Shown piece by piece: positions 1 to 12,509 of a stretch of 64,000 bases of DNA (position 1 is the stretch's first letter; each line of letters begins with the position of its first letter). Location of the stretch: contig NZ_FPCI01000002.1 in assembly GCF_900116385.1 (NCBI RefSeq), positions 1 to 64,000 on the forward strand. The letters run 5' to 3'. The notes beneath the pieces are model-generated. The model was not told where the DNA came from. It saw nothing but the letters and a program-made list of their open reading frames with translations, and searched no databases. The translations under genes and the position numbers were made by a program. The DNA is from Pseudoxanthomonas sp. YR558. Lineage in GTDB: Bacteria; Pseudomonadota; Gammaproteobacteria; Xanthomonadales; Xanthomonadaceae.

Positions 1-67
1 GACGGTGAGCCGCAGAGATAGGACCTGCCAGAAGAACTAGTGCGGCCGCCACGAAGACTCGATCCAT
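1..67 (-). CDS. Cassette 20, partial: exported protein of unknown function
   Basis: Only the first 22 codons are in the window. They begin with an ATG 3 bp from the attC core at 70-76 and read MDRVFVAAALVLLAGPISAA, followed by HR. This is a typical Sec signal peptide with a hydrophobic core and an ISA-A cleavage site. The mature protein lies outside, so no function can be given. Confidence 0.6.
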   Translation of the reverse strand, partial: MDRVFVAAALVLLAGPISAAHR

Positions 68-69
68 AG

Positions 70-129
70 ACCTAACGCCTGAATTAAGCCGACCCACGAA
101 GCGGGTTCGGCTTGAATGAATTGTTAGGG
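70..129 (-). repeat. attC site of cassette 19
   Basis: Outer cores are ACCTAAC at 70-76 and GTTAGGG at 123-129. The stem differs from its neighbours by one base (GACCCACGAAG instead of GACCCGCGAAG). Confidence 0.93.
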
Positions 130-150
130 CGCAGCAAGCCGGCCACTCCC

Positions 151-351
151 CTAGCGCCGATCACGACGCTCTGAACCCGTAAGTCGCTGAACGATCTTCT
201 CCCGGAAGCCGTCTACAAGAATCGCTCCAATAAGTAGTGCCACAACTCCAGGCGCAAAGAACCAGAGCGAAAAGTCGTAGCCGAATACCGGGAGCCCAAC
301 AAGCGCGACACCCAGCGCTACTAAAGCTAGCCCTATGTACCCAAGAATCAT
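151..351 (-). CDS. Cassette 19: small two-helix membrane protein
   Basis: This 66-residue protein has two hydrophobic segments, about residues 2-22 and 28-46, followed by a strongly basic tail ending SERRDRR. It would be an inner-membrane hairpin with a cytoplasmic positive tail. The ATG lies 10 bp from the attC core at 362. I do not recognise the family, and nothing in it suggests catalysis. Confidence 0.7.
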   Translation of the reverse strand: MILGYIGLALVALGVALVGLPVFGYDFSLWFFAPGVVALLIGAILVDGFREKIVQRLTGSERRDRR

Positions 352-361
352 TTCTTGTGCG

Positions 362-421
362 CCCTAACGCCTGAATTAAGCCGACCCGCGAAGCGGGTTC
401 GGCTTGAATGAATTGTTAGGT
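362..421 (-). repeat. attC site of cassette 18
   Basis: Cores are CCCTAAC at 362-368 and GTTAGGT at 415-421, with the standard central stem. Confidence 0.95.
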
Positions 422-805
422 GCCAGCCCGAGACGCCACAAAGGCCGCCGCTGCAGGCACCACGATCTCCTGGATAGACTCTGCACCAGTCAGAGCGACA
501 GAACAAATCTCTGCCAAGTCAGATGCGGTATCAGACCCCAGGCCATAGTGTGCTTCCGCATGCAGCAGGCTGGTTAGCAGGTCACCGGGGTAAAGCTCAG
601 CCTCAAGGAGCGGTTCGACGGTGAGTGCGCCGATGGCAAGTGGAGCCAGATGAGCTACCCCAATCCCCTGCCGCAAGCAGAAGGCGAGATCGCCTTGCGA
701 AAGATCGGATAGCTCGCACTGCCACAGTGAACGAGCCCGATCGCTTACGCCGGATCCGACGTCCGGGCGACTGGCCAAGCTTGGGTCAGCATCGATCAAC
801 CTCAT
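416..805 (-). CDS. Cassette 18: CdiI-type contact-dependent inhibition immunity protein
   Basis: This 129-residue protein carries the pattern I associate with CdiI immunity proteins of the CdiI_2 type. It has SLWQCELSDLSQGDLAFCLR, then QGIGVAHLAPLAIGAL, then a PLLEAELYPGDLL block at about residues 65-77. In that family the LW..L..L...DL...RQ.IG...L.PLA...L...PL....YPGDLL string is the conserved core. The protein would be cytosolic and bind the toxin tip of a CdiA-like effector. No cdiA or cdiB is in the window, so it would be an orphan immunity gene. The ATG is 4 nt after the GTTAGG core, and the stop codon overlaps the core of its own attC. The family call rests on recalled motifs, not on a search. 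Confidence 0.6.
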   Translation of the reverse strand: MRLIDADPSLASRPDVGSGVSDRARSLWQCELSDLSQGDLAFCLRQGIGVAHLAPLAIGALTVEPLLEAELYPGDLLTSLLHAEAHYGLGSDTASDLAEICSVALTGAESIQEIVVPAAAAFVASRAGT

Positions 806-808
806 GGC

Positions 809-868
809 ACCTAACGCCTGAATTAAGCCGACCCGCGAAGCGGGTTCGGCTTGAATGAATTGTTAGGC
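809..868 (-). repeat. attC site of cassette 17
   Basis: Cores are ACCTAAC at 809-815 and GTTAGGC at 862-868. Confidence 0.95.
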
Positions 869-1150
869 ACCATAACGCGGCGCCTCCGAGCCCCAAGTTA
901 CAGCATTGGAACTTACGTCAAGGCCGGCAACTCGCCTTAGCTCTTGCCATGGGGTGCTTGAGGTTTCGTACTCGATGATCTCGTAGGTGCGGCCGCAGGT
1001 TTGCCAGCTCGTGCAAGGTGCAACGTTTGGACGTTGGTCCCAAGGAATAGCGGCCAGCCGCCCTAACTCTGCCCAGGCTTCGTCGAGCGACGCGTACTCG
1101 CCGATCTGCTCGGCGTGGCTCTCGTCCTCGATTACGAAACACTTTGACAT
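863..1150 (-). CDS. Cassette 17: hypothetical protein
   Basis: This 95-residue protein has no signal peptide or membrane segment. It is acidic with several aromatic positions. A central stretch, PNVAPCTSWQTCGRTYEIIEY at about residues 41-61, holds two cysteines and reads like the core of a small alpha/beta fold. The ATG is 4 nt after the attC core GTTAGG, leaving no room for a separate Shine-Dalgarno sequence. I do not recognise the family. Small acidic orphan proteins in cassettes can be immunity proteins, but that is only a guess here. Confidence 0.65.
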   Translation of the reverse strand: MSKCFVIEDESHAEQIGEYASLDEAWAELGRLAAIPWDQRPNVAPCTSWQTCGRTYEIIEYETSSTPWQELRRVAGLDVSSNAVTWGSEAPRYGA

Positions 1151-1153
1151 GGT

Positions 1154-1213
1154 GCCTAACGCCTGAATTAAGCCGAGCCGCGAAGCGGCTTCGGCTTGAA
1201 TGAATTGTTAGGC
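1154..1213 (-). repeat. attC site of cassette 16
   Basis: Cores are GCCTAAC at 1154-1160 and GTTAGGC at 1207-1213. The central stem is a variant (GCCGAGCCGCGAAGCGGCTT) with compensatory changes on both arms that preserve pairing. Confidence 0.95.
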
Positions 1214-1567
1214 CGCGCGTCCACGGAGCCCAAGCTGCAATAGCCTATCCCTGAGAATTTTGAAGGCCAGCCATCCAAATATGATGGATATCGCAGCATA
1301 CGGCCATGCTTGATGGAAAGAGAAGAACGCATGATCTTTGTATGGTCCGCTACCCGCAACTGCCTGATAGAGCAGAAGCAGAACCCCTAGCAGCGCACCA
1401 AGTGCCACCAGCGACCAAAGAACGGTCATAGTCCAGTAGCGAATCGGTGCGGTCTTTCGCTTCAGGACGATGCTACCCATCACCCAGACGCGACGTGTCT
1501 CGACTGCGCCGGCGACCAAGTCAATGAGAAAGATGGCTAGGAAGAGAAGTGACAGAAATCGAAACAT
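1208..1567 (-). CDS. Cassette 16: three-helix membrane protein
   Basis: This 119-residue protein has three hydrophobic segments at about residues 4-22, 46-68 and 85-104, separated by short basic loops (KRKTAPIRY; ILRDRLLQ). It is probably an inner-membrane protein. A GGAG lies about 5 nt upstream of the ATG, so this gene, unlike many in the array, has its own ribosome-binding site. The TAA stop is formed by the CCTAAC core of its own attC. The family is not recognised. Confidence 0.68.
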   Translation of the reverse strand: MFRFLSLLFLAIFLIDLVAGAVETRRVWVMGSIVLKRKTAPIRYWTMTVLWSLVALGALLGVLLLLYQAVAGSGPYKDHAFFSFHQAWPYAAISIIFGWLAFKILRDRLLQLGLRGRAA

Positions 1568-1577
1568 TGTCTCCGCG

Positions 1578-1637
1578 GCCTAACGCCTGAATTAAGCCGA
1601 CCCGCGAAGCGGGTTCGGCTTGAATGAATTGTTAGGC
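1578..1637 (-). repeat. attC site of cassette 15
   Basis: Cores are GCCTAAC at 1578-1584 and GTTAGGC at 1631-1637. Confidence 0.95.
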
Positions 1638-1907
1638 CCCAGCCAGCGCTGTGACCGACTCGACTGTGATGCTGCCATTGAACCCCTCCGCAATGCACGC
1701 CGCGATAGCGTCCGAGAACTCGCCCGTCAGGGCAGAACCATCTGCGTCGTAGTCGTTGTCCGCTTGCAGCAGCAACCGAAAGCCGGCCCAAGAGCACTGA
1801 ACGTTCTGGTGCCAGGGCCGGTGCATGAACTCCTCAGCGATGTCACAGGCAGCGGCAGCGCCGACCTGCTCAGGAACTCCACTACAAGCAAGGACTATTC
1901 GATACAT
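1632..1907 (-). CDS. Cassette 15: hypothetical acidic protein
   Basis: This 91-residue soluble protein starts MYRIVLACSGVPEQVGAAAA. It continues with a histidine/tryptophan-rich stretch (EEFMHRPWHQNVQC) and an acidic segment NDYDADG. The ATG is 4 nt after the attC core GTTAGA. The strong net negative charge and small size are compatible with a toxin-binding antidote, but no family is recognised and no catalytic motif is evident. Confidence 0.65.
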   Translation of the reverse strand: MYRIVLACSGVPEQVGAAAACDIAEEFMHRPWHQNVQCSWAGFRLLLQADNDYDADGSALTGEFSDAIAACIAEGFNGSITVESVTALAGA

Positions 1908-1910
1908 GGG

Positions 1911-1970
1911 GTCTAACGCCTGAATTAAGCCGACCCGCGAAGCGGGTTCGGCTTGAATGAATTGTTAGGT
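1911..1970 (-). repeat. attC site of cassette 14
   Basis: Cores are GTCTAAC at 1911-1917 and GTTAGGT at 1964-1970. The left core deviates from the usual GCCTAAC. Confidence 0.95.
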
Positions 1971-2255
1971 GCCCATCGGGAAGAAGGTGAAGCCTTGGTT
2001 GGGCTTGCGCTCCGTCTCCGCGGGAACCTCATCAATGTTCTCGAAGTACACTTTTGCATCTTTCATCCGATACTTAGGCGCAACAGCTAGATCCGGATCA
2101 TTCCGTAAGAGTTCTACTACCAGCATCTCTGCCTCTTCTGCCGAGGCTGCGTCCACAAAGCGTGTGGTGTAGAAGCCGGCCGGCTGCTTGCTCCCTATCA
2201 GCTTGCCAGGAAAGTTATCTCCGCGAATGAAGCAACGAAAGACTGGCATGGGCAC
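1965..2255 (-). CDS. Cassette 14: hypothetical protein
   Basis: This protein of up to 96 residues has no membrane segment. The pattern NFPGKLIGSKQPAGFYTTRF, then VDAASAEEAE, then FENIDEVP and a GFTFF end suggests a compact alpha/beta domain. Two starts are possible: a GTG at 2255, inside the attC core, or an ATG at 2249. I prefer the ATG because most genes in the array start 3-6 nt after GTTAGG. The function is unknown. Confidence 0.65.
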   Translation of the reverse strand: MPMPVFRCFIRGDNFPGKLIGSKQPAGFYTTRFVDAASAEEAEMLVVELLRNDPDLAVAPKYRMKDAKVYFENIDEVPAETERKPNQGFTFFPMGT

Positions 2256-2360
2256 CTAACGCCTGAGTTAAGCCGGACCGCTGCGCGGCACGGCGGAGTG
2301 GTAAACGCTACCACTTAAGCCGAGCCGCGAAGCGGTCTCGGCTTGAACGAATTGTTAGGC
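2254..2360 (-). repeat. Atypical 107-bp attC site of cassette 13
   Basis: The outer cores are normal (ACCTAAC at 2254-2260, GTTAGGC at 2354-2360), but the site is 107 bp instead of 60. The extra DNA includes a perfect 7-bp inverted repeat, AGTGGTA-aacgc-TACCACT, between 2297 and 2315. It also includes a left arm (GAGTTAAGCCGGACCGCTGCGCGG) that differs from all other sites. It looks like part of one attC fused to a second attC lacking its left core, or a genuinely longer attC acquired from elsewhere. Confidence 0.85.
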
Positions 2361-2364
2361 GGCA

Positions 2365-2697
2365 CTACTCGAACGTCATCTCGAACGGGATGGTAATAGA
2401 GCGAAGTTTGCCAGAAGGTTCGTAGCGCCACGCTTTTACTGCTTGAAGAACAGCCTCTTTCCAGGCTGGATGCCCGGAAGCCGAAACAACAACGACGTTT
2501 GCAACGGTTCCGTCCCTTTGGATCGTGAGTCTGACTACTACATTTCCCCGTCTGAGCTCAGTAATGCGAGGAGCTTGAGGAGCGGGGCAAGAGATTGTCT
2601 CAGGATCGAGACCAGTGCACGTGGTCGCTTTGCCGGCCAAAGAACCGGCTGAAAAAAGTGATAGAGCCGAGAAGCCGGTAGCTGCGAGCCACTTCAT
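2365..2697 (-). CDS. Cassette 13: exported TonB_C-like domain protein
   Basis: This 110-residue protein has a signal peptide (MKWLAATGFSALSLFSAGSLAG) and a short TonB C-terminal-like module. The module has VVVRLTIQRDGTVANVVVV, then AWKEAVLQAVKAWRYEPS and a final strand IPFEMTF, which matches the W.(Y/F).P pattern of that fold. It lacks the TonB membrane anchor and proline-rich spacer, so it probably sits free in the periplasm. The open frame continues upstream through the neighbouring attC, but the ATG at 2697, 6 nt after GTTAGG, is the credible start. Confidence 0.72.
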   Translation of the reverse strand: MKWLAATGFSALSLFSAGSLAGKATTCTGLDPETISCPAPQAPRITELRRGNVVVRLTIQRDGTVANVVVVSASGHPAWKEAVLQAVKAWRYEPSGKLRSITIPFEMTFE

Positions 2698-2702
2698 GTG
2701 CC

Positions 2703-2762
2703 GCCTAACGCCTGAATTAAGCCGACCCGCGAAGCGGGTTCGGCTTGAATGAATTGTTAGGG
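2703..2762 (-). repeat. attC site of cassette 12
   Basis: Cores are GCCTAAC at 2703-2709 and GTTAGGG at 2756-2762. Confidence 0.95.
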
Positions 2763-3133
2763 CCATTGAAGCGAGGGTTTCGCCAGAGTGCAATGAACCA
2801 GAAGACAAGCCCTCCGCCCGTGGCGAGAAGCAGCGAAAACAGAGTTGTTGACAGCCCATTGAGCAAGAAGTCCTCCCAAGTTGACGTTGAGAACCACAGG
2901 AGAAGAAACAAGCTGGCGGCGGCAACTCCACCCATGATGGACTGCCACCAAGCTAGCCAACGTCTACGGATGAACAGCCAGATTATCGGAGTGCCGAAAA
3001 GAAGCATTACGGAGTAACTAATCACCAGCATTAGCCTGAACCACCACAGGGTATAGGTGTCATATGGTGGAACGAGGTGGGGAAGCTGAAGTATCAGGGG
3101 CGTTAGTAGCGCACCTAGAAAAACTCTGATCAT
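2717..3133 (-). CDS. Cassette 12: four-helix membrane protein reading into its attC
   Basis: This 138-residue protein has about four hydrophobic segments (residues 4-20, 32-54, 66-82 and 95-116). The frame has no stop before the attC, so the last 13 residues, NNSFKPNPLRGSA, are encoded by the attC itself and end at a TAA inside it. The same tail recurs in cassettes 3 and 10. The ATG is 3 nt after the GTTAGG core. The family is unknown; the context gives only an inner-membrane location. Confidence 0.68.
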   Translation of the reverse strand: MIRVFLGALLTPLILQLPHLVPPYDTYTLWWFRLMLVISYSVMLLFGTPIIWLFIRRRWLAWWQSIMGGVAAASLFLLLWFSTSTWEDFLLNGLSTTLFSLLLATGGGLVFWFIALWRNPRFNGPNNSFKPNPLRGSA

Positions 3134-3136
3134 GGC

Positions 3137-3195
3137 CCTAACGCCTGAATTAAGCCGACCCGCGAAGCGGGTTCGGCTTGAATGAATTGTTAGGC
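3137..3195 (-). repeat. attC site of cassette 11
   Basis: Cores are CCCTAAC at 3137-3143 and GTTAGGC at 3189-3195. The site is 59 bp. Confidence 0.95.
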
Positions 3196-3549
3196 CTCTC
3201 CACCGGAAAGGCCCGCCACCACAAGCTTAAGCCTTGAGACCGCCTCAGTGGAACCGAAGCGGCCGGCCGCGCGATAGCTCTCATTTGCCGCATCCGCGTC
3301 CGAGCAGGCCTTGGCAAGAATGGTCTCCGCCACTGTCTGATGGAGGGCAATGCGCGCGGCGTACCTGGCCAGCACGGCTTGACCTGCCTGATCCGACTCG
3401 TGGCCGTCCAGGGCAAATGACCAATAGAAGTTGTCGTACTCGGCGCAGAATTCAGCGAACGACACGTGTCCAGCAGCACACTCGCGCACCAGGTCATCAG
3501 AGCGATCTAGTGCCGCAAGGAGATCAATCTCTGTCGGGTACGAGTTCAT
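3190..3549 (-). CDS. Cassette 11: hypothetical mostly helical protein
   Basis: This 119-residue soluble protein is predicted from composition to be mainly helical and acidic. It begins MNSYPTEIDLLAALDRSDDL and has an aromatic patch EYDNFYWSFALDGHE near residues 37-51. The ATG is 11 nt after the attC core, and its stop codon is made by the CCTAAC core. No recognised motif. An immunity or antitoxin role is possible but unsupported. Confidence 0.65.
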   Translation of the reverse strand: MNSYPTEIDLLAALDRSDDLVRECAAGHVSFAEFCAEYDNFYWSFALDGHESDQAGQAVLARYAARIALHQTVAETILAKACSDADAANESYRAAGRFGSTEAVSRLKLVVAGLSGGEA

Positions 3550-3559
3550 GTCTTGAGAG

Positions 3560-3619
3560 GCCTAACGCCTGAATTAAGCCGACCCGCGAAGCGGGTTCGG
3601 CTTGAATGAATTGTTAGGG
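3560..3619 (-). repeat. attC site of cassette 10
   Basis: Cores are GCCTAAC at 3560-3566 and GTTAGGG at 3613-3619. Confidence 0.95.
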
Positions 3620-3876
3620 GGCAAGCCGGCATCAAGCCAGGCAGCGTCAAACTGTGCTGCAGACATGACGCTAATCTTGTTGCTCAAGTCCACTAGCTGC
3701 GAGTCAAACAGGAAGATCGCCGGCGGGATGGGCGCTCGGTGTACGGGCATGTCAGCGTCATCAAAACCTATCTCGCGCAACACGGACCCGTCAGCGCCGC
3801 ACTCTGTGACGATATGGGAGAGCCCAAATCTCTCGATGCCCTCGATCTCGCTCTTGCCCCAGCGCAGATAGATCAT
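3574..3876 (-). CDS. Cassette 10: hypothetical protein reading into its attC
   Basis: This 100-residue soluble protein starts MIYLRWGKSEIEGIERFGLS. It lacks a stop before the attC, so it ends with the attC-encoded tail NNSFKPNPLRGSA. An AAGG lies close upstream of the ATG, formed partly by cassette sequence after the core. The rest (HIVTECGADGSVLREIGFD; FDAAWLDAG) suggests a small mixed fold with no known active site. Confidence 0.6.
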   Translation of the reverse strand: MIYLRWGKSEIEGIERFGLSHIVTECGADGSVLREIGFDDADMPVHRAPIPPAIFLFDSQLVDLSNKISVMSAAQFDAAWLDAGLPPNNSFKPNPLRGSA

Positions 3877-3883
3877 CCTTGCC

Positions 3884-3943
3884 CCCTAACGCCTGAATTA
3901 AGCCGACCCGCGAAGCGGGTTCGGCTTGAATGAATTGTTAGGC
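3884..3943 (-). repeat. attC site of cassette 9
   Basis: Cores are CCCTAAC at 3884-3890 and GTTAGGC at 3937-3943. Confidence 0.95.
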
Positions 3944-4174
3944 CGACGGCCCGTGAGAAACAAACTGCAAAGGCTCTCTTTGCAAGGACCATTCTGGCAG
4001 ATAGACGCGGCCGAATGGTGGGGACAACAGCATGACGCCAGACTCCTCAACACCGATTGCCTGCATCTCCGCCGGCGTACGGACGATCAGCTCAATGGTG
4101 CCGGGTGTCTTCCCGTTCTCTAACAGTACGGAGTCTCCGATCTTCATGGTCGATCCGTCTGAGTAAGTAAACAT
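3938..4174 (-). CDS. Cassette 9: hypothetical small beta-rich protein
   Basis: This 78-residue soluble protein contains MKIGDSVLLENGKTPGTIEL near the start and GVMLLSPPFGRVYLPEWSL later. The pattern looks like a small SH3/KOW-like beta barrel, in which a GDxV....G..GxI strand pair is followed by an FG.V.lp strand. GGGAAG upstream of the ATG provides a plausible ribosome-binding site. The fold idea is inferred from residue pattern only, and the function is unknown. Confidence 0.65.
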   Translation of the reverse strand: MFTYSDGSTMKIGDSVLLENGKTPGTIELIVRTPAEMQAIGVEESGVMLLSPPFGRVYLPEWSLQREPLQFVSHGPSA

Positions 4175-4190
4175 GTCGCTTCCCGTCGCG

Positions 4191-4250
4191 GCCTAACGCC
4201 TGAATTAAGCCGACCCGCGAAGCGGGTTCGGCTTGAATGAATTGTTAGAC
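4191..4250 (-). repeat. attC site of cassette 8
   Basis: Cores are GCCTAAC at 4191-4197 and GTTAGAC at 4244-4250. The right core deviates from GTTAGGC. Confidence 0.95.
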
Positions 4251-4257
4251 GTGCCTA

Positions 4258-4551
4258 TCACAGACTCCCGCCCGAGGCCGCGAAACGTATCAGCAGAAAG
4301 GCTAACAGCACAATGGCAAGAGTAAGGGCGCATATGGCTAAACCCACGAGGAGCTTGAGATTGGTTGCCAACTGGCGCCACTTGCTTGGCTGGAGAAAAT
4401 GAAACACCCAGAAGGGCCACCACTCACCACCAGATGGTGAGTCAATTTTTTTGTGAAGATCGGGCATTTCTCTAGATATGCGGCCAGCTGAAGCCGTGGC
4501 CACTATGAAAGCGACTGCAGCAGACATCATGGCAGCAATGAGGACCATCAT
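4258..4551 (-). CDS. Cassette 8: two-helix membrane protein
   Basis: This 97-residue protein has an N-terminal hydrophobic segment (residues 2-22), a polar loop of about 40 residues with several tryptophans (SGGEWWPFWVFHFLQPSKW), and a C-terminal segment (about 68-91). The ATG is 28 nt from the attC core, the longest leader in the array, and a GTG nearer the core is followed at once by a stop. Probably an inner-membrane protein of unknown role. Confidence 0.63.
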   Translation of the reverse strand: MMVLIAAMMSAAVAFIVATASAGRISREMPDLHKKIDSPSGGEWWPFWVFHFLQPSKWRQLATNLKLLVGLAICALTLAIVLLAFLLIRFAASGGSL

Positions 4552-4579
4552 GCGTCGGTTACGAACCCCCTCAGTGCAC

Positions 4580-4639
4580 GCCTAACGCCAGAATTAAGCC
4601 GACCCGCGAAGCGGGTTCGGCTTGAATGAATTGTTAGGC
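4580..4639 (-). repeat. attC site of cassette 7
   Basis: Cores are GCCTAAC at 4580-4586 and GTTAGGC at 4633-4639. It carries CGCCAGAATT where the others have CGCCTGAATT. Confidence 0.95.
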
Positions 4640-4927
4640 CTCAGTCGACATGGCTGCACGCCAAGCGACTGTCGCCTCTTTGATGCCGGGCAAGCTATCA
4701 AAAGCGCGGGTATGGCGCTCGTGGTAGCTCGTTGGGTTATGTCGCACAAGCCTGGCCAGATCTGCAGCGTAGACCGTACCTCTACAAGAGATCTGCTCCG
4801 ACTCTTCGGGCGTGAGGTGCAAGTCGACGGAGTACAAGCCAACCGTGCCACATAGGACAGAAAGGTATAGATCACCATCGTTGTCGAAAAGCATCCACGA
4901 CCCGGACTCTTCTGCGATAACTCTCAT
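4634..4927 (-). CDS. Cassette 7: hypothetical protein
   Basis: This 97-residue soluble protein opens MRVIAEESGSWMLFDNDGDL. That reads as two beta strands with a DNDGDLYLSVLCG turn, then helices rich in acidic residues (LTPEESEQI). The ATG is 4 nt after GTTAGG. The N-terminal strand pair resembles small single-domain immunity proteins, but I cannot assign a family. Confidence 0.63.
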   Translation of the reverse strand: MRVIAEESGSWMLFDNDGDLYLSVLCGTVGLYSVDLHLTPEESEQISCRGTVYAADLARLVRHNPTSYHERHTRAFDSLPGIKEATVAWRAAMSTEA

Positions 4928-4930
4928 GAG

Positions 4931-4990
4931 GCCTAACGCCTGAATTAAGCCAACCCGCGAAGCGGGTTCGGCTTGAATGAATTGTTAGGT
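4931..4990 (-). repeat. attC site of cassette 6
   Basis: Cores are GCCTAAC at 4931-4937 and GTTAGGT at 4984-4990. One stem base differs (GCCAACCCGCGAAG). Confidence 0.95.
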
Positions 4991-5009
4991 GCTGACTCAG
5001 GAAAGTCCA

Positions 5010-5321
5010 TCAGCTGCTCCAAGCTAGGTGGCCGGCGACCAAAGTAGATAGAACCAGAATCAGGCACATCGTGCAAAGCCAGAAGCTAATGCACTGTGGA
5101 GCGGTCCGTAGCGCCTTGTTGGTGATCAGGGCATAGCCTGCGGCCGGAACAACAACAAGCATGAAAACGGAAGACAAGCCCATAAGAATCAGAAGCGGGC
5201 CTCTGAAGGGAGTGCGGAAGTCTAGGGCGACCAAGCTTGCCAGCGAGATAAGCCAAGTTCCCGATAGAGTGAAGAGCAAAGGTCGGCATCCCGACCATGG
5301 CGCGCATATCCATATCAGCAC
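5010..5321 (-). CDS. Cassette 6: membrane protein with uncertain start
   Basis: The frame encodes 103 residues with three hydrophobic segments (about 13-33, 41-66 and 80-98), typical of a small inner-membrane protein. Its only start at the 5' end is a GTG that overlaps the attC core. The natural ATG codons just downstream (5313 and after) lie in another frame and give a 75-residue non-membrane product. Either the GTG is used or a one-base change near the start has broken the gene. The membrane frame is preferred because of its composition. Confidence 0.5.
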   Translation of the reverse strand: MLIWICAPWSGCRPLLFTLSGTWLISLASLVALDFRTPFRGPLLILMGLSSVFMLVVVPAAGYALITNKALRTAPQCISFWLCTMCLILVLSTLVAGHLAWSS

Positions 5322-5379
5322 CTAACGCCTGAATTAAGCCGACCCGCGAAGCGGGTTCGGCTTGAATGAATTGTTAGGT
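5320..5379 (-). repeat. attC site of cassette 5
   Basis: Cores are ACCTAAC at 5320-5326 and GTTAGGT at 5373-5379. Confidence 0.95.
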
Positions 5380-5619
5380 GTCACGATCTGACCTCGAGAA
5401 GCCTCTCACCGCGCTGCCTATCAAGTAGATGCCGATTGCAGAGAACACCACCATCGCAAAGATCGCCGGGTATCCGTAGATACAGGAAGCTCTGCATATT
5501 GCAGCTTGCTCTGCTTTGAGTGATTGCCCGAAAGCTAGTAGCACTAAGAAAAGGCACCCTATCCCAGCAAGTAGGGCGGTGGCGTGGCCAGCAGGTGTTC
5601 CCTTCTTTGGTTGGGTCAT
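5374..5619 (-). CDS. Cassette 5: two-helix membrane protein
   Basis: This 81-residue protein has hydrophobic segments at about 14-32 and 52-71. Two cysteines lie in the loop (ICRASCIYGY) and could form a periplasmic disulfide. The open frame extends upstream across an attC, but the ATG at 5619 with a GGAG about 9 nt upstream is the sensible start. Unknown family. Confidence 0.66.
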   Translation of the reverse strand: MTQPKKGTPAGHATALLAGIGCLFLVLLAFGQSLKAEQAAICRASCIYGYPAIFAMVVFSAIGIYLIGSAVRGFSRSDRDT

Positions 5620-5636
5620 CGCGGAACTCCAGTGAC

Positions 5637-5696
5637 GCCTAACGCCTGAATTAAGCCGACCCGCGAAGCGGGTTCGGCTTGAATGAATTGTTAGGC
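5637..5696 (-). repeat. attC site of cassette 4
   Basis: Cores are GCCTAAC at 5637-5643 and GTTAGGC at 5690-5696. Confidence 0.95.
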
Positions 5697-6104
5697 CCCA
5701 TCCGACGCCCCCGGCGTACGGAAGGCCGAGCGGAGCCAGCCAGCTCCAAACAACGTCAGTACGGGACCAATGCCAAGAGTTAGGAGGCCGCCGGTGTATT
5801 GAGGCTCTCGCTCCACGAAAGTGTTGTATAGAACCCAAGCGACGATACTCAAGCCAATGCCAGCACAGGCCAGCCCGAATAAAGCCTGCGGCACCCCCAT
5901 TAGTATGCCGAGGGTGTGGATGAAAGTCCCGCGGCTTTGAGTGCTGCGGAGCTCACGCCCAAGATCAATCCAGTAGAGCACCACCAGGGGCAGACTGGCG
6001 AGGAAGAGTAGGAAGAAGAACCCGTTCTGGGTAAGCCCTACGAGCAACAGCGACAGAGGCATTGTCGCGATTGAAGCTCCGAGTTTTATCGCGGTCTTTC
6101 TCAT
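5691..6104 (-). CDS. Cassette 4: four-helix membrane protein
   Basis: This 137-residue protein has hydrophobic segments at about 9-24, 28-46, 66-93 and 106-123. The N-terminus is basic (MRKTAIKLG) and the end polar. The ATG is 4 nt after the GTTAGG core. It is probably an integral inner-membrane protein, with no charged residues inside the helices to suggest transport. Family not recognised. Confidence 0.67.
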   Translation of the reverse strand: MRKTAIKLGASIATMPLSLLLVGLTQNGFFFLLFLASLPLVVLYWIDLGRELRSTQSRGTFIHTLGILMGVPQALFGLACAGIGLSIVAWVLYNTFVEREPQYTGGLLTLGIGPVLTLFGAGWLRSAFRTPGASDGA

Positions 6105-6107
6105 GGG

Positions 6108-6167
6108 GCCTAACGCCTGAATTAAGCCGACCCGCGAAGCGGGTTCGGCTTGAATGAATTGTTAGCG
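6108..6167 (-). repeat. attC site of cassette 3
   Basis: Cores are GCCTAAC at 6108-6114 and GTTAGCG at 6161-6167. The inner core matches, as its complement, the CGCTAAC core at the 5' end of the same cassette (6635-6641). Confidence 0.95.
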
Positions 6168-6631
6168 CCCGCACCGCGATCTATGCGGATGCGTGCGCCA
6201 TTGATGATGGTGGCATGGAATGGCTCTCCTCGATAGGTGAACCGGAACGAGCTAGGGGACGACCAGCTAGAAAAGACGAAGCCGGACAACTCCCCCTTGA
6301 ATCCAAAGTGCTCAGCGAATGCAGCCAAGTCGACGGAACGAGAGGCTGCCACCTTGCTGCAGCACCCCTCAAGGCCTGTGGTAAGCGTCTCAAGAACCAA
6401 AGACTGATAGATCTCAGAGCGATAAACCACTACGCGTAGCGACTGTGCCTGAGGCGAATTGGGAGAATCAGTATCTGCAACCGAAGGAAGTGCTGCGCTG
6501 TCGCCAGCCGACATGAACTCGATGGCCGCATAGCTCGCTTTGGCTGTCACAGGGGTCAGCGAGGACTCGAATGCTTGTGCCGCCGCTAGGCAAGGCGCGA
6601 GAAGAAGGGCTGCTAGTAAGAGTGCTCTCAT
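6122..6631 (-). CDS. Cassette 3: secreted/periplasmic protein reading into its attC
   Basis: This 169-residue protein has a clear signal peptide (MRALLLAALLLAPCLAAAQA). The mature part has two adjacent cysteines (EGCCSK) and a beta-rich C-terminal half (GELSGFVFSSWSSPSSFRF; RGEPFHATIINGARIRI). It lacks a stop before the attC and ends with the shared attC-encoded tail NNSFKPNPLRGSA. The ATG is 4 nt after the core. Unknown function. Confidence 0.68.
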   Translation of the reverse strand: MRALLLAALLLAPCLAAAQAFESSLTPVTAKASYAAIEFMSAGDSAALPSVADTDSPNSPQAQSLRVVVYRSEIYQSLVLETLTTGLEGCCSKVAASRSVDLAAFAEHFGFKGELSGFVFSSWSSPSSFRFTYRGEPFHATIINGARIRIDRGAGANNSFKPNPLRGSA

Positions 6632-6634
6632 GGG

Positions 6635-6694
6635 CGCTAACGCCTGAATTAAGCCGACCCGCGAAGCGGGTTCGGCTTGAATGAATTGTTAGAG
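6635..6694 (-). repeat. attC site of cassette 2
   Basis: Cores are CGCTAAC at 6635-6641 and GTTAGAG at 6688-6694. The inner core is complementary to the CTCTAAC core at the 5' end of the same cassette (6981-6987). Confidence 0.95.
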
Positions 6695-6710
6695 CCCATG
6701 TTGGAGCGGC

Positions 6711-6977
6711 TCACGCACCGCACTTGAACTCCGCCGCAGCTACCGCCTTTTCACTAGCCTCCAGCGATCTTTCTCTTGCGGCATCTGCATTCTCCTGGGT
6801 CGGCTCAGACTCCGCTTTGTCCAAGGCATCTTGCGCAATATCTGCGGCACGATCCGCCTCATCAATAAGCCGGTCAGCTCTTGCGTTGCAGCTCTCGCCG
6901 GATGCCACACGATTGCCGTCAACTTGCGTTGCGCAGGATGCGAGTAGCAACAAGTTGATGCTCAGGAAAATTCTCAT
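6711..6977 (-). CDS. Cassette 2: small lipoprotein
   Basis: This 88-residue protein has a short lipoprotein signal, with LLLLASC as lipobox and Cys15 as the likely lipidated residue. The mature part is almost entirely helical and alanine/acid-rich (DRLIDEADRAADIAQDALDK; ARERSLEASEKAVAAAE), which suggests a coiled-coil rod like Lpp-type or entericidin-like proteins. Two further cysteines (residues 30 and 86) could form a disulfide. The ATG is 4 nt after GTTAGA. Probably anchored to the outer membrane. Confidence 0.7.
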   Translation of the reverse strand: MRIFLSINLLLLASCATQVDGNRVASGESCNARADRLIDEADRAADIAQDALDKAESEPTQENADAARERSLEASEKAVAAAEFKCGA

Positions 6978-6980
6978 GGG

Positions 6981-7040
6981 CTCTAACGCCTGAATTAAGC
7001 CGACCCGCGAAGCGGGTTCGGCTTGAATGAATTGTTAGGC
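6981..7040 (-). repeat. attC site of cassette 1
   Basis: Cores are CTCTAAC at 6981-6987 and GTTAGGC at 7034-7040. Confidence 0.95.
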
Positions 7041-7043
7041 GGC

Positions 7044-7370
7044 TCACGCATGGAACGCAAGCGCCAGAACTGGAGCTTGACCAGCCTCAACGCGTCGCCA
7101 GTTGACGAAGGCGGCGCACTCGACAAGAGCGGAGAATAGATCAGGTTGGCGAAGCTTGAAGTCTTGAGCGTGGTCAATAACAAGCGACAGCATCTGGCCG
7201 GAATCAACGTGCACAGTGGTCATGCCTGAGCTTGGATCATCCAGATATGAAAGACAGTCGATCCAGGCGTCCATGTTGCGGCCGTAGAAGGATGGGAACC
7301 CAAACGCCGTAGTGAATACGGAATGGAAGGACTCAACGTCCACGATGCTGTTTGCGTCAATTCGCATCAT
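7044..7370 (-). CDS. Cassette 1: barstar-family ribonuclease inhibitor
   Basis: This 108-residue protein matches the barstar fold: an N-terminal MMRIDANSIVDVESFHSVF strand-helix, then FGFPSFYGRNMDAWIDCLSYL at about residues 23-43. The FGFP.FYGRN.DAW.D motif contains the barnase-contacting loop of the family. Barstars bind and neutralise barnase-type RNases, so this protein would act in the cytoplasm against an incoming or neighbouring toxin. No barnase gene is present, which makes it an orphan immunity gene in the best-expressed position of the array. A GGAAG lies just upstream of the ATG. The call is firm for the family and weaker for the target. Confidence 0.78.
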   Translation of the reverse strand: MMRIDANSIVDVESFHSVFTTAFGFPSFYGRNMDAWIDCLSYLDDPSSGMTTVHVDSGQMLSLVIDHAQDFKLRQPDLFSALVECAAFVNWRRVEAGQAPVLALAFHA

Positions 7371-7382
7371 TGCTTCCGAGCA

Positions 7383-7425
7383 GCCTAACGCCTAGTAGAC
7401 CCCAAAAGCGGGGAATAACGCAGAG
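7383..7425 (-). other. Putative attI recombination site
   Basis: A single core, GCCTAAC at 7383-7389 (GTTAGGC on the minus strand), closes the array with no attC stem beside it, as expected for an attI junction. A second core-like GTTATTC (minus strand, about 7413-7419) and a CCCC-AAAAGC-GGGG inverted repeat lie within 35 bp on its outer side. The assignment comes from position and array polarity; the attI sequence itself is not conserved enough to recognise. Confidence 0.55.
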
Positions 7426-7453
7426 TATTCAGCCGCGTGCTCTGGCTCGTCAA
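7424..7453 (-). promoter_or_regulatory. Candidate cassette promoter Pc
   Basis: On the minus strand a TTGACG (-35; plus positions 7448-7453) is followed after 18 bp by AATACT (7424-7429, a weak -10). It points into the first cassette and sits just outside the presumed attI. The -35 is good and the -10 poor, so this is a candidate only. Confidence 0.4.
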
Positions 7454-7555
7454 CGGAGGATCTTTCGCACTATCAACCGCTTGGCCGTGATGTTTCTCTG
7501 AAAGAGCACGATCTGGCCACGGAATATCCGCCAATGATGCGGCGATAACGGTTTA

Positions 7556-10500
7556 TCACCCTGCTTCCGGGGCGGTATCGGTGTCCTGATCGGGAGCGGG
7601 TTGAGGGGGGGCAACGTGATGGGCGGCCAGGAACGCTCGAAGTGACGCCGGCTTCACCGGTTTGGTCAGCAACCGATAGCCGCGCTCGCGGGCTTCGCGC
7701 TTCAGCTCGTCGCGACCGTCGGCGGTGAGCAGGGCGCCGGCGATGGGGCCGGGGCTGGCGGCGCGCAGGGCGTCGAGCGTGGCCAGGCCGTCGAGGCGGT
7801 CATGCAGGTGGTAGTCGACCAGCATCACCGCGGGATGCTCGGCGATCTTCTCCAGCGCTTCGTCGACGGTGGTGGCGGAAATGACGTCCACCTGCCAACG
7901 CCCCAGCAGCGCACGCATGCCATCGATGATCTCGCGGTCGTTGTCCACGCAAAGCACGCGGAGGCCTGCCAGCGAATCGCTTGCCAGGGCCGCACGGCGT
8001 GAGGACGTGCGGCGCTCGCTGACCTGGGTGCCGCGGGGCACCACGATCGAGAACATGCTGCCGCGGTCCACCGTGCTGCGCGCATCGAGTTCGTGCTGCA
8101 GCAGGCGCGAGATGCGCTGGCAGATCGACAGGCCCAGGCCGAGGCCGCGCTCACCCCAGTCGAACGGCTGCTGGTAGCGGTGGAACTCATCGTAGATCTG
8201 CCGCATGTGGTTGTCGGGAATACCCGGCCCGGTATCCCACACCTGCAGCACCACCTGATCGCCGCGCGCGCGCATACCGATCACGATGCGGCCCTCGCGC
8301 GTGTAGCGCAGCGCATTAGCCAGGAAGTTCTGCAGCACCCGGCGCAGCAGGCGGCGATCGCTACGCACTGGAACGGCGCGCGCGTGAACGCGCAACTTCA
8401 ACCCACGGCCGGCAGCGACGGGTGCGTACTGCGCGGCCAGTTCGCGCAGGAGTTCGCCCGCATCGAAATCGGTGATCTGCGTCTGCAGACCGCCGGCGTC
8501 CAGTCGCGAGACGTCCAGCAGGCCGTCGAGCAGTTCTTCCGCCGCGCGCAGCGACGCATCCACGCGCTCGGCCAGATGTTGGCGCTCCTGCGCCTGAGCA
8601 TCGGCGCCTTGCTCGCTGTCGCGCAACGCGCTGACGAAAAGGCGCGCTGCATTGAGCGGCTGCAGCACGTCATGGCTGATCGCGGCCAAGAAACGCGTAC
8701 GCGACTGCTGCGCGTGCTCGGCGGCCTGGCTGCGTTCGGCGACGCGCTGCTCCAGCGTCTCGTTGGTTTCCAGCAGCAGCGATTCGGCGAGCTTGAAGTC
8801 GGTGATGTCGTTGTAACTGGTCACGTAGCCACCACCGGGCAGCGGCTGGCCGCGCATCTCGATCACCTGGCCATCGGCGCGGACGCGCTCGAAGATGTGG
8901 GGCGAACCGGCACGCATGTAGCGGATGCGCTTGTTGATCTGCGCATCGATGTCGCCTTCGCCCAACTCGCCGCGCTCGGCGTTGTAGCGGATCAGGTCCG
9001 CCACCGGTCGGCCCACGTATAGCATGCCCTCCGGATAGCCGAACATCTGCTGGTAGCGCCGGTTCCATGCGACCAGGCGCATCTCCGGGTCCACCACGCT
9101 GACGCCCGCGCTGATGTTCTCCAGCGTGGTGGAGAGAATCTCGCGGTTGAAACGCAGTTCCTGGCCGGCCTGGTCGAGCACCGCCACCACTTCGCCCAAC
9201 TCCATGCCCGACCCGCGCAGCACGCTGGTCAGCACGATGCGGGCAGATGCTGCGCCGATGGCCGCCGCCAACAAGCGCTCGGTGAACTGCACCCAGGCCC
9301 GGTCGGCGGGTGCGTTCGGTTGCAGTTCGCGCTCCAGCAATTGCGCCTGTTCGGCAAAGGCGCGACGGGCATGGCGCTCGCCGACGACGCGTTCGGCCAA
9401 CGTGCGCAGATCACCCACGCGCACACTGCCGGGCCATTCGCCCGCGACCAGCGCGGGACGCTGCGCATACGGATCGAGAAAAGGCGCGGCGCGCAGGCGC
9501 TCGTCGACGCCGGGACGCGAGCGCGCCGACACGATCATCATCGCGCCGGTGTTGACCAGCAGCGACCAGAACGTGCCGTGCGTCAGCGTGTCCCAGCCGC
9601 TCAGGCCGAACAGCTGCTGTGGCCGCAGCCACGTGATGCCGAACGGTCCGCTGTGCAGCCAGTGCATGTCGAACCAGCCGGCTTGCGTCATCGTGGGCAG
9701 CAGCAGCGTGTAGATCCACGTGGCGAAGCCGAGCACCATGCCGACCTCCACGCCGCGCCGGCTGGCGCCGCGCCAGTACAGGCCACCGATCAGGCCTGGC
9801 GCGAACTGCGCCACGGCCGCGAAGGCCATCAGGCCGTACGAGGCCAACGTGCTGTCGTTGCTGCTGCTGCGGTAGTAGGTGTAGGCCGTCAGCGCCAGCA
9901 GCAGGATCGCCACGCGGCGGATCCACAACACGCGCGAGGCGACGTCGGCTTCCGCATGGTGCTCGGCCCAGCCGCGACGCAGCAGCACCGGCATGATCAG
10001 ATCGTTGCTGACCATCGTGGCCAACGCGATGCTCGCCACGATGACCATGCCGGTCGCCGCCGAGAAGCCGCCCACGTAGGCGACGATGGCGAGCGCCGTG
10101 CGGCCTTCGGCCAGAGGAAGCGCCAGCACATAGCTGTCGTCGGCTACGCTGCTGCCGCCGAACAACGCCACGCCTGCCGCCGCCACCGGCACCACCATCA
10201 GCGAGAACAGCGCCAGGTAGCCACCGAACAGCCAGCGCGCCTTGCGGATATCGCCCACGTCGCTGCATTCCACCACCGCGACGTGGAACTGGCGCGGCAG
10301 GCAGACGATGGCGAGGAAGCCGAGCAAGGTCTGTGCGATGAAGCCCACCGGTGGCGCGTTCTCGAACAGCGTGCGTGCCGAATCGGTCACCCGGATCTCA
10401 TTGCCATCCAGCCACAGGTAGGCGAATACACCGACGGCGATCATCGCCACCAGCTTGACCACCGACTCCAGCGAGATCGCCAGCATCATGCCGTGGTGAT

Positions 10501-11056
10501 GCTCGGTGGCGTCGACCTGACGGGTGCCGAACAACGCGGCGAACAGCGCCATCAGCAAGGCGACGTACAGCGCCGGATCGGTGAAGAAGCCGTGCGCGCT
10601 GTCGCCGCCTTCGCCGCTGAGTACGCTCAGGCTCATCGCCACGGCCTTGTACTGCAGGGCGAGGTAAGGCACCACGCCGATCAGCGCAATCACCGTGACC
10701 AAGGCGGCCAGACGCCGCGAGCGACCGTAGCGCGAGGAGATGAAGTCGGCGATCGAGACAGTGTTCTCGCTGCGCGCGATCAGCGCCAGCCGCTCGATGA
10801 TGCGCCAGCCGAACAGCAGCAGCAGGACCGGGCCGAGATAGATCGGCAGATAGCCCAGGCCGTTGCGGACCGCGCTGCCGACCGCGCCGTAGAACGTCCA
10901 CGACGAGCAGTACACGGCCAGCGCCAGGCTGTAGACCACCGGGCGCAGCCACGGGCGGTCGGGGTACATCGGGCGGCGGTCGCCCCACCACGCCACGCCG
11001 AACAGCAGCGCGGCGTAGCCGATCGACACCAACAGCAGGATCCAGCTGGAAACCAA
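7556..11056 (-). CDS. Hybrid sensor histidine kinase with N-terminal solute-symporter domain
   Basis: This 1166-residue protein combines a sodium:solute symporter-like domain with about 12 or more helices (residues 1-500), a linker, a PAS domain (about 645-760), and a HisKA dimerisation domain with phospho-acceptor His in ISHDVLQPL near 794. A HATPase_c follows (NFLANALRY; GLGLSICQ near 982), then a receiver domain with Asp in VMLVDYHLHD near 1080 and the conserved Lys in LLTKPVKP. The layout is that of CbrA/ErcS/NahK-type kinases, which sense nutrients or transported ligands at the inner membrane. The longer open frame starts at 11266 and would overlap the next gene. I chose a TTG at 11056 because GGGGAGAGG precedes it and the hydrophobic region begins there. 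Confidence 0.88.
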   Translation of the reverse strand: MVSSWILLLVSIGYAALLFGVAWWGDRRPMYPDRPWLRPVVYSLALAVYCSSWTFYGAVGSAVRNGLGYLPIYLGPVLLLLFGWRIIERLALIARSENTVSIADFISSRYGRSRRLAALVTVIALIGVVPYLALQYKAVAMSLSVLSGEGGDSAHGFFTDPALYVALLMALFAALFGTRQVDATEHHHGMMLAISLESVVKLVAMIAVGVFAYLWLDGNEIRVTDSARTLFENAPPVGFIAQTLLGFLAIVCLPRQFHVAVVECSDVGDIRKARWLFGGYLALFSLMVVPVAAAGVALFGGSSVADDSYVLALPLAEGRTALAIVAYVGGFSAATGMVIVASIALATMVSNDLIMPVLLRRGWAEHHAEADVASRVLWIRRVAILLLALTAYTYYRSSSNDSTLASYGLMAFAAVAQFAPGLIGGLYWRGASRRGVEVGMVLGFATWIYTLLLPTMTQAGWFDMHWLHSGPFGITWLRPQQLFGLSGWDTLTHGTFWSLLVNTGAMMIVSARSRPGVDERLRAAPFLDPYAQRPALVAGEWPGSVRVGDLRTLAERVVGERHARRAFAEQAQLLERELQPNAPADRAWVQFTERLLAAAIGAASARIVLTSVLRGSGMELGEVVAVLDQAGQELRFNREILSTTLENISAGVSVVDPEMRLVAWNRRYQQMFGYPEGMLYVGRPVADLIRYNAERGELGEGDIDAQINKRIRYMRAGSPHIFERVRADGQVIEMRGQPLPGGGYVTSYNDITDFKLAESLLLETNETLEQRVAERSQAAEHAQQSRTRFLAAISHDVLQPLNAARLFVSALRDSEQGADAQAQERQHLAERVDASLRAAEELLDGLLDVSRLDAGGLQTQITDFDAGELLRELAAQYAPVAAGRGLKLRVHARAVPVRSDRRLLRRVLQNFLANALRYTREGRIVIGMRARGDQVVLQVWDTGPGIPDNHMRQIYDEFHRYQQPFDWGERGLGLGLSICQRISRLLQHELDARSTVDRGSMFSIVVPRGTQVSERRTSSRRAALASDSLAGLRVLCVDNDREIIDGMRALLGRWQVDVISATTVDEALEKIAEHPAVMLVDYHLHDRLDGLATLDALRAASPGPIAGALLTADGRDELKREARERGYRLLTKPVKPASLRAFLAAHHVAPPQPAPDQDTDTAPEAG

Positions 11057-11108
11057 CGCCCTCTCCCCGGCGCTTACGCCGTCGCCGAGTGTACTGCGTG
11101 GCGTGCGC

Positions 11109-12509
11109 TCAGGTGGCGTCCGGTCCGAGTAGTCCGCGCACCGCGGTTTCGGCCTGGCCGCGCAATTCGGGGATGGCGATGCTCTCCCACACGCAGCCGA
11201 TGCGCAGGCTACCGAGGATGAACACCCGTGGCTGCGACTCGCCGCGCGCATCGACCATCCGGCCATCGCGCGCAGCCTTCAAGCCGATGCCGTGCGGTCC
11301 GGCTTGCGCATGGCCCTTGCCGAGCAGGTCGTGCAGCAACGGGCTGCGCATGGTCTGCGCGCGCATTTCCACGCCGGTGGCGTTAACCACATAGTCGACG
11401 TCGAACTCGTCGATACGGCCGTCGCGCGCGTGCGTGCTGACGCGCAGGCGAGGGCCTTCGGCCATCACCGTATCCAGCCGGCCCCGATGCAGCCGCAGCT
11501 GGCCGCGTTCGACCAGCGCCTGCAGGCGGGCATGCACCTCGGGCGCGATGCGGTGGCGGTGCACGTCCCACTGGCGCACCACGTGGCGCAGGAAACGGCG
11601 CTGGTCCGGCACCGAAAGCGATTGCCACAACGCCTGGACGTGCGGGCGGATGCGCTCCATCGCCGATTGCCAGGGCAATCCGTCGGCCACCGCCTGCTTT
11701 GCCGCGTTGCGCAGGAAACGCATGCGCGTGCGCAGGTCCATCGCCTGCAGCGGTGCGGGGTCGTAGGTGGCGGCCGGTCCGTGGCAATGCGGGAGCGGCA
11801 GCAGGGCGTGCCGCGAGAGCACATGGATCGTGCCCGCGTGGCCGTTGTCGGCCAGGCTGAGCACCGTGTCGACCATGCTCAGGCCGGAGCCGACGATGCA
11901 CAGGTCGGTGTCGGTCGGGATCGCCTTGATCGCATCGAAATCCCATGCGGCCAGCGAACGGCCCGCCGGCAACTGCGGCGCGCCGCGCGCCGGCAGCGGT
12001 TTGGGCGTATTGCCTACCGCCAGCACGACGCCCTTCGCATGCAAGGCGCCGTGCGTTTCGAGGCGCAGGGTCGCGCCATCGGCCTCGGGGTCGAGTTCGG
12101 TGACACGGTCGTGCATCACATGCAGCGTCGCCGGGCTCGCCGCGATGGCTTCGCCCAGCCTGACGCGTAGGTACTCGCCGTAGCGCCGGCGCTCGATGAA
12201 CGCATGCGCCAGCGTGTCGCGATCGGGGCCGCCGGGCGGCGTGGTGGCCACGACGTAGTCGAGGAAGTCAGCGGGTCGGTCGTCGAACGCACTCATCCGT
12301 GCGGCCGGCACGTTCAACACGTGCTCGCCATGCGTCGTCGCGTAGGCCACGCCCTGCGCGAGCGTGTCGCGGGGCTCGATCATCACGATGCGCAGTGGCG
12401 CGGTGGCCTGGCGCAAGGCCTGCATCGCGACCAGCACGCCGCCGGCGCCGCCGCCGATGATCGCAAGGTCGCAGGGCGGCAGCGGGGCGGTCGGGGTGTC
12501 TTCGCTCAT
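11109..12509 (-). CDS. FAD/NAD(P)-binding oxidoreductase-like protein
   Basis: This 466-residue protein opens with an FAD-binding Rossmann motif (LAIIGGGAGGVLVAMQAL, about residues 15-32) and has a second NAD(P)-type motif (DLCIVGSGLSMVDTVLSL) near 200-220. The overall pattern is of the HpyO/HcpA-type FAD-NAD(P)-binding family rather than a classical disulfide oxidoreductase, since no CxxC is present. The substrate is unknown. It ends 52 bp before the kinase start on the same strand, so the two may be co-transcribed. Confidence 0.75.
   Translation of the reverse strand: MSEDTPTAPLPPCDLAIIGGGAGGVLVAMQALRQATAPLRIVMIEPRDTLAQGVAYATTHGEHVLNVPAARMSAFDDRPADFLDYVVATTPPGGPDRDTLAHAFIERRRYGEYLRVRLGEAIAASPATLHVMHDRVTELDPEADGATLRLETHGALHAKGVVLAVGNTPKPLPARGAPQLPAGRSLAAWDFDAIKAIPTDTDLCIVGSGLSMVDTVLSLADNGHAGTIHVLSRHALLPLPHCHGPAATYDPAPLQAMDLRTRMRFLRNAAKQAVADGLPWQSAMERIRPHVQALWQSLSVPDQRRFLRHVVRQWDVHRHRIAPEVHARLQALVERGQLRLHRGRLDTVMAEGPRLRVSTHARDGRIDEFDVDYVVNATGVEMRAQTMRSPLLHDLLGKGHAQAGPHGIGLKAARDGRMVDARGESQPRVFILGSLRIGCVWESIAIPELRGQAETAVRGLLGPDAT

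Follow-up and report, generated by a model that had tools for sequence, protein, structure and literature searches.

Cassette arrays without an integrase gene of their own, termed clusters of attC sites lacking an integron integrase (CALINs), are commonly explained by insertion at off-target sites, by intI loss or by rearrangement (PMC8618304), and they can be mobilised in trans by the integrase IntI (PMC12444791). 'Immunity proteins' have been named among the products of effector-like cassettes (PMC11089894). In Bacteroidales, orphan SUKH and Tdi1 proteins encoded in recombinase-associated acquired interbacterial defence (rAID) arrays protect against toxins of type VI secretion systems (T6SSs) (PMC12247911, PMC10470768). 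Here we describe an integrase-less cassette array at the start of contig NZ_FPCI01000002.1 (C2) of Pseudoxanthomonas sp. YR558, whose genome is 3.79 Mb; the window is the first 64,000 nucleotides of this contig. A preliminary description of the window, made from its letters alone, had interpreted the array as an archive of immunity genes against competitors' toxins, chiefly because of a barstar-like and a CdiI-like cassette.

Both immunity assignments hold, and the less expected result is the integrase-less platform itself, a promoter and an attI site at the head of the array. We consider it probable that, jointly, the window contains the promoter-proximal part of a second integron platform without its own integrase, that an integrase encoded elsewhere in the genome serves this platform in trans, that an orphan Barstar-family gene is expressed from it, and that immunity genes are a recurrent minority of its cassettes and not its purpose: a rAID-like function inside a general-purpose integron.

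A promoter-attI module behind a histidine kinase gene

The array spans positions 73-7403 on the minus strand, the strand of all features described below. It has the anatomy of an integron cassette array: 19 attC sites lie between 19 complete cassettes, each with a single open reading frame (ORF) and all in one orientation. Three attC sites were folded as DNA, and each gives a strong hairpin as a single strand (z -4.6 to -7.2), including those of cassette 1 (6984-7040; z -4.6 and -4.8) and cassette 13 (2250-2360; z -7.2), the latter longer and divergent. An attI core, GGGGTCTACTAGGCGTTAGGC (7403-7383), stands upstream of cassette 1; the only intI of the genome, on another contig (C1:1715-2776), has the identical core next to it. 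The module containing this core reaches back to approximately 7465 and includes a Pc-like promoter, TTGACG-18-AATACT (7453-7424), the sole promoter-like site in the interval 7000-8000 (shuffled sequences give a mean of 0.1). A TTGACG/AATACT promoter-like site accompanies both attI sites of the genome, the kinase-linked one described here and the intI-linked one.

The gene next upstream of the module is not intI but a hybrid histidine kinase gene (7556-11266; 1236 amino acids), which reads towards the array and marks the conserved site of the platform. The integron-integrase profile, the sole integrase profile run, has no match on the window contig, and Rfam gives no match over positions 1-12000 at gathering scores. 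Judged from sequence, the attI and cassette promoter (Pc) of a complete integron are thus present at the array head, and intI is missing in cis; with at least two attC sites and no intI nearby, the array also falls within the definition of a CALIN.

The module is not confined to this genome. The C-terminal part of the kinase is matched in 37 of 38 genus genomes, and the DNA behind it was read at 30 of the 37 loci found; a promoter-attI module follows the kinase at 14 of these 30. The second hexamer is AATACT in 11 of the 14 and CAGAAT in 3, and attI has 0 to 3 mismatches. The module lies at most 340 bases from the kinase match in 13 genomes and 1 kb from it in G019 (genomes are designated by number, the source genome being G000). 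An attC site is found within 1.5 kb in 13 of the 14; in G017, the contig ends approximately 105 bases further along. At the 14 module-bearing loci, the kinase fragment is approximately 89% or more identical to the source kinase. One locus of the same identity class, that of G022, has no module, nor do the other 15 loci (86% identity or less). The module-bearing species are grouped here by kinase identity.

The gene intI occurs in 26 of the 38 genus genomes, as one copy in 24 of them and as two copies in the other 2, and a strict attI search allowing 2 mismatches found sites in 17 of 38. Among 30 attI loci examined, 9 have a full intI, 11 have the kinase and 10 have neither within at most 3 kb, 2 of the 10 showing a short intI match. 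Further integrase-less attI sites therefore probably exist, and such additional sites suggest that some chromosomes may have at least three platforms. The stretches with attI and without a full intI or kinase are L059, L060, L061, L065, L067, L073, L075, L080, L083 and L084.

Kinase-linked and intI-linked arrays of one genome have cassettes in common. With kinase- or intI-linked status assigned from coordinates, 8 genomes in the survey have both kinds of array, and in 5 of these the two kinds share whole cassettes, attC included, with a DNA identity of at least 90%. The shared cassettes make up 27 pairs (19 in G024, 5 in G020, and one each in G019, G028 and G029), some of which reuse one cassette, G024 having two intI arrays; 5 pairs are 100% identical. 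Outside this count, both arrays of the source genome break in the assembly at the same cassette: the left contig ends share 94 bases and the right ends 95, and the 20th cassette of the window, of which only the start precedes the contig end (1-72), has the same start as the cassette that opens the intI contig. Because lolCD-like genes at the C2 end and a comEC-like gene beside intI were recognised by eye, the intI array would appear to consist of the C2 end joined to the C1 start, and the window array to continue at the C1 end. From the presence of whole cassettes in both arrays of one genome, we infer that an integrase serves the kinase-linked platform in trans.

The attI modules themselves point in the same direction. 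Across 12 genomes, the kinase-linked module has a mean identity of 0.724 to the intI-linked module of its own genome versus 0.643 to those of other genomes, a resemblance reached by 1 of 20000 shuffles (2 in a repeat) and by 18 of 20000 without G007 and G029. The resemblance fits either an exchange between the platforms or their adaptation to a single integrase. As further observations, duplicated cassettes occur within and between arrays in G020 (L099, L100) and G024 (L102, L109), with 26 to 49 attC sites per stretch, and a single contig of G028 contains three attI sites.

Immunity-family cassettes in the window and the genus

Cassette 1 (7044-7370; 108 amino acids) was initially called a barstar homologue on the motif FGFPSFYGRN. 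The motif is present, and the protein scores 58.4 bits with Pfam Barstar (PF01337; cut-off 23.4 bits, E 7.3e-16). The acidic barnase-contact residues of barstar, Asp35 and Asp39, align with Asp34 and Asp38 of the cassette protein; Asp38 is invariant in 6 of 6 aligned barstars, and the Asp34 position is Asn in 2 of the 6. Cassette 1 is an orphan Barstar-family gene and occupies the first slot behind the promoter-attI module. Judged from sequence, the 'expressed position' of the preliminary description therefore exists.

No barnase (PF00545) is found in the window. The single PF00545 match of the genome lies on another contig, where the end of the RNase ORF is overlapped by 4 bases by the other barstar ORF of the genome; because of this overlap, the two are regarded as an ordinary pair. 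A barstar match of the strength of this chromosomal one occurs in 38 of 38 genus genomes (the RNase was searched for in the source genome only). The cassette barstar was ruled out as a duplicate of the chromosomal barstar: the two are 24% identical, with a BLASTP alignment covering just 41 residues at 34%, and the cassette protein groups with other barstars. None of the 33 loci examined among the other 41 genus barstar matches has attC nearby, and the extra barstars in G007, G018 and G019 likewise have none. The relatives of the cassette barstar include 11 matches in plasmid records, the best being from Granulicella (53%), Burkholderia (50%), Ochrobactrum (48%), Paraburkholderia (47%) and Deinococcus (46% and 44%). 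No barnase is annotated as a neighbour of the barstar in any of the four annotated records examined, from Granulicella, Burkholderia, Paraburkholderia and Deinococcus, and a fifth record bears no annotation; one plasmid relative comes after an AbrB-VapC pair.

Cassette 18 (416-805; 129 amino acids), originally assigned to CdiI-type immunity proteins of contact-dependent growth inhibition (CDI), matches Pfam CdiI_3 (PF18616) at 46.3 bits against a cut-off of 28 (E 4.2e-12) and, weakly, the solved CdiI 5j5v_C (E 0.035). Of the 38 genus genomes, the source genome alone has a CdiI_3 match, and the protein had no match when scanned against named genomes. The window has no CdiA-sized gene, because no complete ORF exceeds the 1236 amino acids of the kinase (cdiA and cdiB profiles were not run, and cdiA was not searched for elsewhere in the genome). 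Thus, within these searches, the earlier statement that neither immunity gene has a linked toxin agrees with what we find, and the CdiI_3 gene is placed in a cassette, not beside cdiA as in a CDI locus. Deep in the array, it is probably expressed weakly unless moved.

The frequency of immunity genes was estimated from a survey of 24 genomes, which yielded 575 cassettes, 565 of them with an ORF, in 419 clusters. Pfam was run on 415 representatives: 378 from other genomes and 37 of the 41 cassette proteins of the source genome (four hydrophobic ones were left out, and 3 further ORFs were scanned). At E 1e-3, at least 10 of the 415 have immunity names, at least 8 of them among the 378 outside the source genome: Barstar (1), CdiI_3 (1), SMI1_KNR4 (SUKH-1; 2), Tdi1 (3), Imm1 (1), Imm8 (1) and Imm32 (1). 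This minimum is drawn from the families listed (25 of 31 and 25 of 29 in two of the four batches) and assumes that no protein matched two counted families, SUKH_6 (1 member) being left out accordingly. Further immunity families, which in the preliminary description would have supported the archive, are present in the genus, with none in the window beyond the two described. Other named classes (GNAT, glyoxalase, HicA, PemK, TIR, OsmC, cupins and more, toxins of toxin-antitoxin pairs among them) together outnumber the immunity names, and most cassettes match nothing.

Two families picked after the cassettes had shown them, SUKH-1 and Tdi1, have attC around 5 of 8 and 4 of 13 of their genus loci, respectively; arrays make up approximately 0.42% of the DNA, as estimated from 1448 attC candidates. 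At one place near intI (G027:C1:1693733-1694595), a SUKH-1 and a Tdi1 cassette adjoin as the second and third cassettes of the stretch read.

Other cassettes of the array

Apart from Barstar, CdiI_3 and the TonB_C domain of cassette 13 (2365-2697; PF03544, E 6.3e-13), Pfam gives no match for any window cassette at an E of 1e-3 or lower. Eight of the 19 are membrane- or signal-like by hydropathy, as are 228 of the 565 cassette proteins of the survey. Membrane-like proteins are encoded by cassettes 4 (5691-6104), 5 (5374-5619), 6 (5010-5321; a 92% relative is found in the G028 intI array), 8 (4258-4551), 12 (2717-3133), 16 (1208-1567) and 19 (151-351; small). Cassette 3 (6122-6631) has a hydrophobic start and no family, and cassette 2 (6711-6977), also without family, is lipoprotein-like by eye.

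Small acidic proteins without family are encoded by cassettes 7 (4634-4927), 9 (3938-4174), 10 (3574-3876), 11 (3190-3549; relatives are found in intI-linked and kinase-linked arrays of other species), 15 (1632-1907) and 17 (863-1150); cassette 14 (1965-2249) likewise has no family. NCBIfam and PADLOC gave no match for the 10 window cassettes scanned. The proteins starting at 863, 1632, 3190 and 4634 had been put forward as suited to a role as toxin antidotes. They are indeed small, soluble and acidic (isoelectric point 4.1-5.0), and searches of Pfam at 1e-3 and of NCBIfam and PADLOC at 0.1 give no match for any of them. Acidity was rejected as evidence for antidotes because it is common among cassette proteins generally: in the survey, the isoelectric point is below 6 for 208 of the 337 cassette proteins that are soluble.

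Several cassette ORFs, those at 3574-3876, 6122-6631 and 2717-3133 (cassettes 10, 3 and 12), have no stop before attC and continue into it, which gives a common C-terminal tail, NNSFKPNPLRGSA. A pentapeptide-repeat cassette (PF00805, 9.7e-17) is present in the intI-linked array (L009, 124-564).

Competing explanations and comparison with described systems

We propose that the single intI, which lies with an attI of its own far from this array, would insert and exchange cassettes at both platforms in trans. IntI would place incoming or excised cassettes at either attI, where the newest would adjoin Pc and be transcribed. The cassette at the window attI would thus be an orphan Barstar-family gene transcribed from Pc, so that the cell should carry an inhibitor of a barnase-like RNase not encoded beside it, and the CdiI_3 cassette would be a stored orphan CDI immunity gene. 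Antidote cassettes, a minority of the general pool, would protect against competitors' toxins once moved to Pc. Integration in trans, expression and protection are what this proposal would add to the protein families, array anatomy, attI-Pc conservation and cassette sharing found in the sequences. A broader version, which we hold only tentatively, is that one integrase with several dispersed promoter-attI expression slots and a shared cassette pool may form a proteobacterial counterpart of rAID, in which foreign antidotes are captured, stored and moved into any of these slots, so that a lineage acquires immunity to the toxins of competitors.

The dedicated archive of the preliminary description, in which most of the unnamed small acidic cassettes would be immunity proteins of undescribed families, is unlikely. 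Immunity families evolve fast, and many would be missed by profiles; seven are represented among the cassettes (Barstar, CdiI_3, SUKH-1, Tdi1, Imm1, Imm8 and Imm32), and a YezG-like ORF at the C1 end of the source genome falls just under its cut-off (19.2 versus 21.7 bits, E 0.0015). Against this stand the small fraction of immunity names, the large share of membrane- or signal-like proteins and the more numerous other named classes, and we do not retain the archive as a description of the array. The opposite view is that both immunity genes are chance passengers of general-purpose sampling, without selection for immunity. This is possible, if somewhat doubtful: the other 563 cassette proteins include no relative of either protein, CdiI_3 is peculiar to one genome, the immunity fraction is approximately 2% and barstars are not enriched in arrays, whereas seven different immunity families, the promoter-proximal slot of the barstar and the proportion of SUKH-1 and Tdi1 loci in arrays (families chosen after seeing them there) argue for more than chance. 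Anti-phage defence banks have been proposed for sedentary chromosomal integrons, and at most 5 of 228 cassette proteins (batches A1 and A4, two of four) have PADLOC defence-type matches, one marginal (E 0.00098) and one of TIR-NLR type, a frequency like that of immunity names; with 0 of the 10 window cassettes scanned matching PADLOC, we judge such a role here to be a little less likely still than the archive.

An endogenous target for the cassette barstar, such as the barnase-like protein of the genome itself, is about as improbable as the archive. The genome does have a PF00545 RNase with its own barstar, but that RNase is already overlapped by the resident barstar ORF, of a kind found throughout the genus, from which the cassette protein is widely diverged. 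Least probable is that the array is a dead CALIN that stayed behind when an old integron lost intI, its cassettes decaying. It has no integrase in cis, and the platform may well have arisen by intI loss or rearrangement, both of which have been proposed to give rise to CALINs (PMC8618304); the cassette ORFs of the window are nevertheless open, and the array was rejected as a simple relic on the conservation of attI and the promoter-like site in 14 genomes and on the near-identical cassettes shared with intI arrays of the same genome.

Several observations weigh against the proposed second platform with its minority of immunity cassettes. Three of the 8 genomes (G000, G014 and G031) have no shared pair at 90% DNA identity or more, and the continuation of the window array at the C1 end rests on neighbour genes recognised by eye. 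The attI resemblance is reached by 601 of 20000 shuffles without G007, G029, G024 and G031, the partner from the same genome takes first rank in just 3 of 12 genomes, and uneven ancestry keeps some likelihood as its source. Structure prediction, which the preliminary description had named as a check, gave poor single-sequence models of the barstar and CdiI_3 proteins (predicted local distance difference test scores of 65 and 55, respectively); the top Foldseek matches of the former are barstars, at a non-significant E of 0.23. The gene tables of the plasmids are incomplete: an unlisted ORF of 183 amino acids precedes the Granulicella barstar, and the upstream neighbours of the Paraburkholderia barstar are hypothetical proteins. 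Barstar matches show no enrichment in arrays, a single cassette being among the 42 of the genus, and only 2 of the 19 window cassettes have immunity names. When the seven loci that guided the choice of SUKH-1 and Tdi1 are removed, 2 of 14 loci are in arrays; the corresponding binomial value of 0.0016 is calculated by DNA share and errs on the favourable side, because small genes abound in arrays.

A platform with its own promoter and attI, conserved at one site in a group of species and having cassettes in common with the intI locus, would imply that a single integrase can operate several expressed arrays, and this would change how integron capacity and expression are counted. The occurrence of barstar, CdiI, SUKH and Tdi1 genes as single cassettes makes it testable whether integrons trade toxin immunity as they do drug resistance. 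In the integron literature searched, with subscription papers outside the search, the available texts contain no report of barstar or CdiI cassettes, nor of conserved attI-promoter sites without intI.

The array resembles the CALINs of Xanthomonas (PMC12444791) in having attC sites but no intI in cis and in keeping its position from one related species to another; where that paper mentions attI, it reports none at its CALINs, whereas the window array is headed by a promoter-attI module. Sedentary chromosomal integrons likewise combine attI, Pc and attC cassettes, usually with one IntI per genome, but here the attI-Pc platform and the integrase are at separate loci. Two attI sites with their own cassettes also occur in one genome in the complex class 1 integron of Salmonella genomic island 1 (SGI1; PMC7056807); there, both are in one resistance element, and here the second is at a separate conserved chromosomal site. 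Orphan immunity genes are kept without toxins in the T6SS arrays of Vibrio cholerae (PMC5361080), which arise by displacement of effector-immunity modules, that paper stating no evidence for an integrase. The barnase-barstar pair of the same genome has the barstar family in common with cassette 1 and differs in its linked RNase, its position outside a cassette and its sequence. The closest working parallel is rAID: its arrays also consist of short co-oriented genes and include orphan immunity genes of the SUKH and Tdi1 families (PMC12247911; Tdi1 in PMC10470768), and its tyrosine recombinase and repeated intergenic motif (PMC12247911) count among the likenesses. The window array has attC sites in place of rAID motifs, and its head is preceded by a kinase gene where rAID has a recombinase in the locus. 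Because it lacks a recombinase in cis and immunity genes make up only a minority of its cassettes, the window array is not a rAID array; the SUKH and Tdi1 families of rAID nevertheless recur in this genus as integron cassettes.

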